The notes below the pieces were generated by a model. The model ran no database searches and was not told where the DNA came from. It saw only the letters and a program-made list of their open reading frames with translations. From contig DATMBG010000037.1 of NCBI GenBank assembly GCA_035559535.1, forward strand, positions 62,001 to 126,000: DNA of 64,000 bases. The letters run 5' to 3'. Within the stretch, counting starts at the first letter, position 1. The number at the start of each line of letters is the position of its first letter. Positions 15,774 through 20,595 of the stretch are shown in pieces. The position numbers and the translations under genes are program-made. This DNA is from Candidatus Limnocylindrales bacterium (GTDB lineage Bacteria > Moduliflexota > Moduliflexia > Moduliflexales > JAUQPW01).

Positions 15774-16547
15774 ATGCCCTATATAAATATTAAAGACAAT
15801 AAGATTCGATATATTGTAGTGGAGAATACCCATAAAGTAGGACATGGCGAAAAGATTTTTTTCCTTCATGGGTTGGGAGGAAATATTTATAACTGGGCGT
15901 ATCAAATTAAATATTTCTCAGAATCTTATCAGGTGATTGCTTTGGAGTTACCCGGTCATGGAAGATCTCCGGGAAAAGGAGCCACCGCCATTTCCGATTA
16001 TACCAACTTGCTACGAGAATTTTTTGAAGTCATGGACCTGGATGAAGTGATTTTAGTGGGTCATTCCATGGGTGGGGCTATTGCTCTAGATTATGCGATT
16101 AAATATCAAGATTCATTAAAAGCCCTTGGACTTGTAGCTACAGGAGCGAAATTTGAGATTTCTACCCAAACCCTCATAAAAATGAAGGACAACATTGAGT
16201 CTATTTTTGGAGCTTTGGATAAAGCCAAGGAAAAAATGAAAGATATCGATGAACGGTTGGTGACCAACGATATCAATGTGATGCTGGGAGATGTGGTGGC
16301 TGCCAGAAAGTTTAACGTAACCTCCCAGTTATCGACCATTCAAATTCCAACTTTAGTCGTTTGTGGTACCGAAGATCCCTTAATTCAAATCTCAATGGCC
16401 GAATATCTCCGGGATCACATTCCGGGTGCTCAACTTGCCCTCATTAAAGGAGCCGGTCATATGGTCATGGTAGAATACCCCCAAGAGTTTAACACCATTT
16501 TGGAGCAGTTTGTTATTAACTTAATGGTAAACTCTTTATGGGACTAA
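15774..16547 (+). CDS. Alpha/beta hydrolase (esterase/lipase family)
   Basis: A 257-residue soluble hydrolase with an oxyanion-hole motif FLHGLGG, nucleophile Ser in VGHSMGG (about 97), Asp in GTEDPL (about 200) and His in GAGHMVM (about 228), ordered as in the BioH/MhpC/RsbQ group. Length is normal. No signal peptide is seen. Neighbours give no pathway, and the upstream promoter suggests it is transcribed alone or with the downstream EF-G gene. Confidence 0.85.
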   Translation: MPYINIKDNKIRYIVVENTHKVGHGEKIFFLHGLGGNIYNWAYQIKYFSESYQVIALELPGHGRSPGKGATAISDYTNLLREFFEVMDLDEVILVGHSMGGAIALDYAIKYQDSLKALGLVATGAKFEISTQTLIKMKDNIESIFGALDKAKEKMKDIDERLVTNDINVMLGDVVAARKFNVTSQLSTIQIPTLVVCGTEDPLIQISMAEYLRDHIPGAQLALIKGAGHMVMVEYPQEFNTILEQFVINLMVNSLWD

Positions 16548-16633: not shown

Positions 16634-18661
16634 ATGGAACCCTCCCTAGATAAGATCCGTAACCTGGGCATTATGGCCCATATCGATGCCGGTAAAACAA
16701 CCGTCACGGAGCGAATCCTGTACTATACCGGGCGCTCTCATAAAATGGGGGAGGTTGACGAGGGATCTGCCACGATGGATTGGATGCCCCAGGAACAGGA
16801 ACGGGGCATTACGATTACCGCGGCAGTTACAACCTGTACCTGGAAAGGTTGTCAGATTAATATCATCGATACGCCGGGTCATGTGGATTTCACCATTGAA
16901 GTCGAACGGGCTTTAAGAGTTCTGGATGGAGCCATAGCCGTTTTCTGTGGGGTAGAGGGTGTAGAGCCTCAATCTGAAAAGGTGTGGCGGCAGGCGGATC
17001 GTTACCATCTTCCCCGGATAGCTTTTGTCAATAAAATGGATCGGGTTGGGGCCGATTTCTTTCGGGCCATCCAGAGCATGGAAGAAAAACTGAAAGCCCG
17101 GGTTGTTCCTATTCAACTCCCCTGGGGAGGAGAAGGTGATTTCCGGGGGGTTATTGACCTTATTGAAATGAAGGGCCTTCTCTGGCAGGATGAATTGGGG
17201 ACGCAAATTGCAGAGGTTGAAATTCCGGTGGATAAGATCCAGGAGGCGAAAAAATACCGAGACAGGCTCATAGAGACCCTGGCCGAGACGGATGATGTTC
17301 TGCTCGATAAGTATCTCAATGAAGTACCTTTGACGGCCGAAGAAATAAAAGCCTCCTTACGGAAAGAGACGTTACAGGGCCGGCTCTTTCCCGTACTTTG
17401 CGGTTCAGCTTTAAAAAATAAAGGCATACAACCTCTGCTCGATGCCGTCATCGACTATCTCCCTTCTCCCATAGAAGTTCCTATAACCCGAGGAATAAAT
17501 CCCCTCACCCAGCAGGAAGAAATTCGTAAGCCGGATTCTACAGAACCTCTGTCGGCTCTTGTATTTAAAGTCATGACCCATCTGGAAGGTCCCACCATCT
17601 TTTATACCCGGATTTATTCCGGTACGTTGTCAGTGGGAGATACCGTCTATAATCCACGTTCGTGTAAGAGGGAAAAAGTTCTGAGGGTCCTTCAACTCCA
17701 TGCCAACAAAATCAACCAAATCGATAAGGCTTATCCGGGGGCCATCATCGGGATTATCGGCTTGAAGTTCACCACGACCGGGGATACCCTCTGTGACGAA
17801 GCCCATCCCATTCTCCTGCAATCCATTGAGTTTCCAGAACCGGTCATCTCCGTTGCTATTGAGCCGAGAACCCAGGCCGATCAGGAAAACCTGGACGAAG
17901 CTCTTCGAAAATTGGCCAACGAGGATCCCACTTTTCAAGTTAAGAAAAATGAGGAGACCGGCCAGACGATTATTTCCGGAATGGGGGAGCTCCATCTGGA
18001 AATTCTCGTGGATCGACTCCTGCGGGAACATAAGGTCAAAGCTCGGGTTGGAAAGCCCCAGGTGGCCTTTAAAGAGACGATTCGGAAGAAAGTAGAAGTG
18101 GAAGGGAAGTTCATCAAACAAACCGGGGGAAGGGACCATTATGGGCATGTGTGGTTGCGGGTAGAACCCAATGAAAGGGGAAAGGGTTTTAAGTTCGAAA
18201 CCGATCTAAAAGAAGGAACCTTACCGCCGATATATATTGCTGCAGTGGAAGCAGGGATTCGGGATACATTGGGAAGCGGGGTATTGGCCGGATACCCCAT
18301 AGTGGATGTCAAAGTCACCCTCTTCGGAGGTTCTTACCATGAAGAACATTCTTCGGAACTGGCTTTTAAGATCGCGGCTGCAACGGCCTTCAATGATGCC
18401 TGTCGAAAAGCAGATCCGGTGCTTCTAGAACCGATTATGCGGGTCGAGGTTAACACCCCCAAGGCCTATACCGGTGAGGTCATAGAAGATCTAAATACCC
18501 GTAAAGGAAAAATTCAAGGATTGGAAACCCGAGAAACTACGGAAATTATTAAGGCTCTGGTCCCTTTGTCGCAAATGTTCGGCTATACCACCAGTCTCAG
18601 ATCTCTGACTCAAGGCCGGGCAACCTTCTCTATGGAACTGTCTCACTATGACGAAGTCTAA
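16634..18661 (+). CDS. fusA: Elongation factor G (solitary, EF-G2-type)
   Basis: A 675-residue translational GTPase. G1 is AHIDAGKT (15-22), G2 includes RGITITAA, G3 is DTPGH and G4 is NKMD; domains II to V follow, with the typical C-terminal [22 protein letters not shown] translocates tRNA-mRNA on the ribosome or helps RRF in recycling. It is not in a str operon (no rpsL, rpsG or tuf nearby), so it is probably a second copy specialised for recycling, slow translocation or stress; that is inference. No clear Shine-Dalgarno site precedes the ATG. The following gene encodes L7/L12-CTD-like domains. Confidence 0.93.
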
Positions 18662-18689: not shown

Positions 18690-20333
18690 ATGATGGACAA
18701 AAATCAGCGTATAGAGAAGTGTGGACCTGTTGCCACTTTCTGTATGTTTGTCTGTGGCCTCTTCCTGGGTCTTGTGGGAGTTCTATCCTCTCACCTGGCC
18801 ATCAGTTTCTATAGGTATCATTTTGTCCTCTTATTTCCTGTCTGGATGGGAATACTCCTGGGAATGGGAGTTTCAATGGGGGCGCGGATAGGAAGATGTA
18901 CCCGACAGTTGTCTGGATTCTTGATGGTTACGCTGCTGAGTATCTTTTGCTACGCCCTGCTTTTAATCCTCAATAACTTTACCTCCCTGACAGAGCCGGG
19001 TACGGCTGTAAAAGAGTATTATTACTTGAGAAGAGATTTTGTAGAACCCCTTCAAAAAACCGTTTCCCAATACGGACTGGATCTCAAGACCTGGGATACC
19101 CTCAAAGAAGTTTGGTTCCAATGGGCTTCTTTATTACCGGCTTATGATGAAAAAGCCATGGTTTCTAACCATGAATTTTCAGTTTTTTTAGAGTATCCTC
19201 CCCTTACCAGGTGGCAGGCACAAAGGAAGATCTTAGAATTCGAGAAGGTCCAAAACTGGATGGTATGGGGTGTGGAACTTCTCGTTTTGATCCTGGTTGC
19301 CTGGGAAAAAACTCATAAAACGATCCAATACAACTACGCCAGGGCTTATTCCAGAAAAATGCTCCAATCCGAAGTGAAGAGCTCTCCGACCGAGACAAAA
19401 ACCCTGGAAAATCGGCTGGCTAACTTGAATCTGGAGCCTGGACGGGTTTCCGAAGCATCTCAGCAGGCCAAAAAGCCTGAGGCCCCTGTTAAAACGCCGG
19501 GTACAGAAACTCCCACGGTTACCATCCCCCCTATGCCGGTGGATCACACCGAAATCCCTGCAACCATGATCCTTGATCGGCAGGTTGATACCACCAAAAC
19601 CCTCACACTGCCTCAGCCAGATATGCCGGGTACTGGTCCAACAACCTCGACTTCTGCAACGCTTAACCGGCCAACTGATACCCCAAAAACCCAGGAGTCC
19701 CCGGAGATAAAGGCCCAACAACCACCGCCAGGCCCCGGGTATGCACTTTTACTTCGAGGATATGATCCAGCACGGACAGAAGCGCTGGTGGATTTCATGA
19801 CCAAATCCCTGAACATGTCCATGGATAAAGCTAAAGTCTTACTTAAAACCCCCTCTCTGTTAAAAGCTCCGGTAACGGACCTGGAAGCTCAGACTCTCGT
19901 AAAAGCGTTTAATCAATTGGGTGCTCGCGTTCAAGTTATCACCCTGGAGCAACTCCGAGCTATAGCCGAAAAACAAAGGAGGCAGAAGAGTAAAGAACCC
20001 TCGAGAACCCTATCGGAATCTGTTACCCAGGGTTTGGAAGTTCCAACCCTCATGACCCCTCCGTTCTCCAGGGATAATCCGAGATATGGGGTTTTATTAC
20101 AAAAATTTGATAAGACCTATGAAGAAGAAGTTCTTCACCTCCTTGCTTCGCTAACCGGATTAACCATAGAACGTCTGAAATCGGCTCTCAGAACTCCTGC
20201 CCTTGTAGTAAAAAATGTGACTCAAGAAGAAGCAGACCGGATCGGTCAACAATTTAAGGGTATCGGTGCAGAAGTAACTATTTTAACCATGCAGGAGGTA
20301 GAAAAATTGTTTGCCCCCAAACGATCTGCGTGA
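18690..20333 (+). CDS. Membrane protein with two tandem ribosomal L7/L12-CTD-like domains
   Basis: A 547-residue protein with three N-terminal membrane segments (about 12-35, 41-62, 72-95), a fourth near 188-207, a Pro/Thr-rich linker (about 250-345), and two repeats of about 70 residues (350-422 and 465-535). Both repeats line up without gaps with the L7/L12 C-terminal domain: repeat 2 has LTGLTIERLKSAL, TPALVVKNVTQEEA and GIGAEV where L12 has ATGLGLKEAKDLV, APAALKEGVSKDDA and EAGAEV. Four membrane passes with a basic N-terminus put the repeats in the cytoplasm. The L12 CTD recruits EF-G to ribosomes, and EF-G is the gene just upstream. The start at 18690 has a purine-rich site; an earlier ATG (18648) inside EF-G lacks one. 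Confidence 0.8.
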   Translation: MMDKNQRIEKCGPVATFCMFVCGLFLGLVGVLSSHLAISFYRYHFVLLFPVWMGILLGMGVSMGARIGRCTRQLSGFLMVTLLSIFCYALLLILNNFTSLTEPGTAVKEYYYLRRDFVEPLQKTVSQYGLDLKTWDTLKEVWFQWASLLPAYDEKAMVSNHEFSVFLEYPPLTRWQAQRKILEFEKVQNWMVWGVELLVLILVAWEKTHKTIQYNYARAYSRKMLQSEVKSSPTETKTLENRLANLNLEPGRVSEASQQAKKPEAPVKTPGTETPTVTIPPMPVDHTEIPATMILDRQVDTTKTLTLPQPDMPGTGPTTSTSATLNRPTDTPKTQESPEIKAQQPPPGPGYALLLRGYDPARTEALVDFMTKSLNMSMDKAKVLLKTPSLLKAPVTDLEAQTLVKAFNQLGARVQVITLEQLRAIAEKQRRQKSKEPSRTLSESVTQGLEVPTLMTPPFSRDNPRYGVLLQKFDKTYEEEVLHLLASLTGLTIERLKSALRTPALVVKNVTQEEADRIGQQFKGIGAEVTILTMQEVEKLFAPKRSA

Positions 20334-20388: not shown

Positions 20389-20595
20389 ATGATTGAAAAA
20401 ACCACTATTTTCATCGAAGGAATGAGCTGCAATCATTGTAAAATGACCCTGGAAAAAGGTATCGGTGGCTTGAAAGGAGTCTCCTCGGTCAAAGTGGATC
20501 TCGATCAGAATCAGGCAGAAGTTCAATTTGATCCCGACGAGATATCCTTGACAGATATTAAAAAGAAAATTGTTGATTTAGGCTATAAGGTTTAG
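20389..20595 (+). CDS. Heavy-metal-associated (HMA) domain protein, CopZ-like
   Basis: A 68-residue single HMA domain with MSCNHC (M-x-C-x-x-C) near residue 14 and the normal ferredoxin-like length. Such proteins bind Cu(I) or similar soft metals and pass them to P-type ATPases, but no ATPase is close. It ends 16 bases before hflK, so it may be read with hflKC. Confidence 0.88.
   Translation: MIEKTTIFIEGMSCNHCKMTLEKGIGGLKGVSSVKVDLDQNQAEVQFDPDEISLTDIKKKIVDLGYKV

Follow-up and report, generated by a model that had tools for sequence, protein, structure and literature searches.

The window, a stretch of 64,000 nucleotides, contains a cassette of three genes that encode an alpha/beta hydrolase, a duplicate elongation factor G (EF-G) and a membrane protein with two repeats resembling the C-terminal domain (CTD) of ribosomal protein L7/L12. 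The three genes lie side by side in all the genomes of the order that we examined, and the EF-G combines its GTPase motifs with an altered domain IV tip. We believe that the best explanation, with a probability of about 0.5, is an order-specific conserved operon in which a specialised duplicate EF-G works with a membrane protein carrying docking repeats. A sequence-only reading of this DNA had proposed a membrane-bound dock that recruits the EF-G or ribosomes. A dock for this EF-G is possible; the conserved operon with its specialised EF-G is the stronger and better-supported finding.

A conserved three-gene operon

The hydrolase and EF-G genes precede the membrane-protein gene.

15774..16547, + strand: alpha/beta hydrolase, first gene of the trio, conserved in four genomes
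16634..18661, + strand: second EFG I-type EF-G, 675 aa, GTPase motifs intact (profiles, alignment, tree)
18690..20333, + strand: membrane protein with two L12-CTD-like repeats, 547 aa (ORF, Pfam, hydropathy)

All three genes lie on one strand with intergenic gaps of 5–87 bases. They are found in the same order and orientation in the four genomes available for the order (4/4), namely that of the window, G001 from the same genus, and G002 and G003 from another family, a comparison that effectively covers two families. The sequence-only reading had placed the EF-G 28 bases upstream of the membrane protein; the spacing was the same when re-measured, and our survey showed that the pair is kept across both families. 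Between the families, the trio are the only genes in common within the 17–18 kb read, and the outer flanks differ. Between-family identity is about 59% for the hydrolase, 61–64% for the EF-G and 28–32% for the membrane protein. The positions of the Ser-Asp-His motif of the hydrolase (GHSMGG, (E/D)D and GHM) are kept in all four genomes.

The three proteins are under purifying selection, with dN/dS values between two sister species of 0.04 for the hydrolase, 0.05 for the EF-G and 0.25 for the membrane protein, the last being about five times that of the EF-G. Within the membrane protein the value is 0.075 for repeat 1 and 0.41 for repeat 2, the latter based on few synonymous changes. A 68-codon frame with a GMSCNHC heavy-metal-binding motif (read by eye) is located at 20389–20595, between the membrane protein and an HflK/HflC-like pair and outside the shared trio. 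RNA elements and tRNAs were searched for in the window and none was found.

A second EFG I-type EF-G with fixed loop changes

The window's genome has three EF-G genes, of which the other two are 61% and 44% identical to the window EF-G. The 61% copy adjoins rpsG, rpsL, rpoC, rpoB and rplL, which is the normal str-rif context, and in each of the order's four genomes the str-operon EF-G and the cassette EF-G are separate genes. The sequence-only reading was therefore right that the window EF-G does not belong to a str operon. It had also called this EF-G solitary, which is true of the gene context but not of the genome, where it is one of three. The third EF-G (contig C22, L026:5416-7500) carries RQVSI in place of the RGITI of other EF-Gs. 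RGITI is absent from the EFG II class of Margus and colleagues (PMC3150367), and the C22 sequence fits an EFG II type. Additional EFG I genes located beyond the str operon are already known (PMC3150367).

The window EF-G scores 990.4 bits against TIGR00484 (EFG I, cut-off 659.4), its G motifs including RGITI are intact, and the solved structures nearest to it are ordinary bacterial EF-Gs. We rejected its identity as EFG II because RGITI is present, and as spdEFG1 because switch I has no KDG insertion; a tetracycline-protection protein was ruled out by motifs and scores. Phylogenetic analysis placed the four cassette EF-Gs in one clade (100/100 support) and the four str EF-Gs from these genomes in a second, separate clade. 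Resolution deep in the tree is low, with 20 of 34 inner branches open, and we therefore make no claim for the origin of the cassette clade.

An inspection of near-invariant positions, defined on 30 ordinary EF-Gs, showed replacement at 19 of 199 throughout the four cassette EF-Gs, against 0 of 203 in the four str EF-Gs of the same genomes, which served as the control. The two tip loops of domain IV contain ten near-invariant positions, and four of the 19 fall there (Fisher p 0.009, a value to be taken as indicative, the loop limits having been picked after the changes were seen). Changes in domain II and in these loops are as follows.

17579..17599, + strand: EF-G residues 316-322 in domain II, DP..G.L replaced by H(L/I/V)..P.I in 4/4 genomes (alignment)
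18134..18139, + strand: EF-G residues 501-502 in loop I of domain IV, DH or EH in place of GQ (alignment, pattern search)
18344..18349, + strand: EF-G residues 571-572 in loop II of domain IV, EH, QN or QH in place of the VD that follows HE (alignment)

Loop I is changed from GRGQYG to GR(D/E)HYG, and loop II from HEVDSS to HE(E/Q)(H/N)SS with its histidine retained. In E. coli numbering, we take the GQ of loop I to be G506-Q507 and the retained histidine of loop II to be H583. One ordinary EF-G also has a histidine at the Q507 position, but without the preceding D/E. When 385 genomes were searched with a DNA pattern for loop I, matches were obtained in the four genomes of the order (4/4) and in one of the 381 others (G183). 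The G183 match lies in an unrelated frame and is not an EF-G, and this pattern search did not find the loop I change in the EF-Gs of the 381 other genomes.

The tip of domain 4 of E. coli EF-G (Q507, H583) touches the tRNA–mRNA complex, and replacements of Q507 promote −1 frameshifting (PMC9307594). Because mutation at the same position has this effect in E. coli, its replacement here is notable. The duplicate EF-G deserves attention by itself, with a histidine fixed at Q507 and changes in the neighbouring loop on a GTPase that in other respects appears fully active.

The membrane protein and its repeats

The features of the membrane protein are listed below.

18729..18785, + strand: predicted membrane pass 1 (hydropathy peak, residues 14-32)
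18822..18878, + strand: predicted membrane pass 2 (hydropathy peak, residues 45-63)
18915..18971, + strand: predicted membrane pass 3 (hydropathy peak, residues 76-94)
19248..19304, + strand: predicted membrane pass 4 (hydropathy peak, residues 187-205)
19740..19964, + strand: L12-CTD-like repeat 1 (residues ~350-424; profile, model)
20085..20309, + strand: L12-CTD-like repeat 2 (residues ~465-541; best PF00542 match)

The ORF starts with an ATG at 18690 or 18693 and ends at 20333, and the orthologs start at the equivalent of 18690. A longer start at 18648 was rejected, as a stop interrupts it in the ortholog of the sister species G001. The four passes are followed by a long proline- and charge-rich linker and then by the two repeats. 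We found the four hydropathy peaks expected from the earlier description of a protein with four passes, and the protein is membrane-anchored. As the number of passes is even, the C-terminus, and hence the repeats, would be cytoplasmic. The full-length AlphaFold model (pLDDT 50.6) is of low quality except in the repeats, and structural interpretation was confined to the latter.

In a Pfam-A search, the membrane protein matched a single family, Ribosomal_L12 (PF00542), at 31.9–32.0 bits for the whole protein (E 1.7e-7; cut-off 25.9). Repeat 2 supplies most of this score, reaching 25.5 bits alone (E 1.7e-5), whereas repeat 1 by itself matches weakly (15.1 bits, E 0.029). At E ≤ 1, PF00542 matches two of the four membrane-protein orthologs. 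The cut-off of TIGR00855, the NCBIfam equivalog for bL12, is not reached by the membrane protein (27.2 vs 84.4 bits). The two repeats can be aligned to each other and to the orthologous repeats. A profile built from the repeats together with two domains from G107 had ribosomal L7/L12 as its top match among PDB sequences (E 1.8e-5), and its matches in other genomes are mostly ribosomal L12.

AlphaFold predicted a beta-alpha-alpha-beta-alpha-beta arrangement for both repeats, with pLDDT mostly 72–89 in models built from four sequences only. The solved structures nearest to the repeat model are L7/L12 CTDs (1ctf, TM 0.89, rmsd 1.2 Å, 69 columns), and on these models the claim of an L12-CTD fold appears good. 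The resemblance to the L7/L12 CTD noticed in the sequence-only reading is borne out by the PF00542 score of the whole protein above the cut-off and by the 1ctf-like model; neither a failed match nor another fold was encountered. The alignment to L12 is not free of gaps as had been stated, since both repeats are one residue short before the conserved proline. The GAEV and TGL positions put forward earlier are present in repeat 2 of the window genome, but the other family's orthologs have QAE/QAD and SGT/SNT there.

Factor-binding residues and related proteins

The CTDs of L12 bind factors, while its N-terminal domain fastens L12 to the ribosome. As this ribosome-attaching domain is absent from the membrane protein, the earlier suggestion that the repeats recruit ribosomes gains no specific support. 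In helices 4 and 5, the basic residues K65, K70 and R73 are present both in E. coli L12 and in the order's own ribosomal L12. Our alignment showed them as a set in none of the eight repeats, where basic residues occur singly: T, Q, E or R is found at K65, D, W, R, H or E at K70, and T, Q, A or S at R73. A 2023 study found weaker binding of elongation factors after single replacement of K65 or K70, even by R (PMC10602876). The L12 contact site on EF-G is the G' subdomain (PMC7395135), which the alignment showed to be ordinary in the duplicate EF-G, with no compensating or cassette-fixed change. These residues make docking by L12's own mode appear disfavoured. Of the proposed dock for this EF-G, the conserved gene pair and the membrane anchor are supported, but the L12 mode of docking is not.

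L12-like domains were also found in the following proteins.

L027:8537-9373 (contig C6): 278-aa protein with an L12-like domain, adjoining an SNF2-type helicase
L028:7800-9197 (contig C33): SH3, coiled coil, membrane pass and C-terminal L12-like domain
L089:1018-1860 (G232): zinc ribbon, L12-like domains as a tandem pair, C-terminal membrane pass
L082:8181-8897 and L083:4436-5803 (G107): membrane-anchored proteins with a single L12-like domain each
L063:7957-8712 (G007) and L113:940-1719 (G294): two membrane passes, zinc ribbons and C-terminal L12-like domain

The first two belong to the window's genome, are non-ribosomal and score above the Pfam cut-off. Membrane or zinc-ribbon L12-like proteins are present in G107, G232, G007, G294 and G038, with one architecture shared by G007 and G294 in two lineages. 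The G107 domains are the closest to the window's repeats that we found beyond the order, where a search for the membrane protein likewise yielded only these G107 proteins, which carry a domain of that kind. In the tail-anchored G232 protein, the first L12-like domain retains K65, K70, R73 and K84 (by eye), so residue loss is no general rule of non-ribosomal L12 domains. A neighbour of this G232 protein resembles bactofilin.

No EF-G-like sequence was detected in the 3–18 kb flanks of the other L12-like proteins, with three cassette controls positive; two stretches are just 3.2 kb and several contigs are short, which makes the absence partial there. Literature searches on L12-like domains in membrane proteins gave nothing relevant. 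Because L12-like domains occur elsewhere without EF-G in the stretches read and the K65/K70/R73 set is absent, the repeats are better read as a general, reusable docking module. A role specific to EF-G is suggested by gene order alone.

Proposed role and alternatives

In the explanation that we prefer, the duplicate EF-G would be a specialised translocase in use under some condition, and the membrane protein would cooperate with it. The two repeats might dock proteins on the inner side of the membrane through a surface that differs from that of ribosomal L12, with this EF-G, the hydrolase or another protein as candidate partners. The genetic linkage argues for a connection between the membrane protein and this EF-G, although it could also reflect shared expression alone.

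Indeed, the three genes might merely be co-transcribed, with the membrane protein serving the envelope or signalling independently of EF-G. L12-like domains in other membrane proteins, in the same genomes and elsewhere, with flanks read without EF-G, would suit this possibility, as would the roughly fivefold faster dN/dS of the membrane protein relative to EF-G. However, the three genes have remained adjacent in both families, the only neighbours read that these share, and the EF-G has diverged as a copy dedicated to the cassette, so we regard mere co-transcription as rather unlikely. Alternatively, the repeats could be true L12 mimics that bind G' of the neighbouring EF-G and concentrate EF-G, or ribosomes bearing it, at the membrane. 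Their L12-CTD fold and cytoplasmic placement, the conserved adjacency and the intact G' of the duplicate EF-G are all consistent with mimicry. It is nonetheless unlikely in our view, even with a rewired interface included: the K65/K70/R73 set is in no repeat though the G232 protein keeps it (by eye), G' has no matching change, and the closest outside relatives of the repeats, in G107, are without EF-G on the contigs read. That L12-derived repeats bind a dedicated, tip-modified EF-G through such a rewired interface and so give a membrane-local pool of specialised translocase is likewise doubtful.

The repeats might also be adaptor domains of the ClpS type that deliver substrates to a protease, as ClpS has the same fold and is the second-best structural match. 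Its TM value is about 0.65 against 0.89 for the L12 CTD, Pfam ClpS does not match the membrane protein at E ≤ 5, and the hhalign probability is 10% (with one ClpS sequence) against 38% for L12. With both the structural and the sequence match weaker than those of L12, we rejected this identity as highly improbable.

If the membrane protein and the duplicate EF-G do cooperate, the operon would provide an elongation factor with a membrane partner of its own, and an L12-type domain would have been reused off the ribosome.

Comparison with known systems

The repeats share with the bL12 CTD the fold and part of the sequence pattern, with a profile score above the curated cut-off. The window protein differs from bL12 in being membrane-anchored, in carrying a tandem pair of CTD-like domains without the N-terminal L10-binding domain, and in the one-residue deletion of its repeats, which do not keep K65, K70 and R73 as a set. 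ClpS is alike in overall fold, with a weaker structural and sequence match. The proteins of G107, G232, G007, G294 and G038 likewise place L12-like domains on a membrane anchor, in G232 also as a tandem pair, but they have other anchors, some have zinc ribbons, and their flanks were read without EF-G.

EFG II, spdEFG1/2 and Bacteroides EF-G2 resemble the window EF-G as extra EF-Gs beside, or replacing, the main one, whereas the window EF-G has RGITI, lacks KDG and scores far higher with TIGR00484 than with the EF-G2 models. Its profile score, its complete GTPase motifs and its nearest structures, those of ordinary bacterial EF-Gs, ally it with EFG I (TIGR00484), from whose ordinary members it is set apart as a second copy beyond the str operon with fixed changes in the domain IV tip and domain II.
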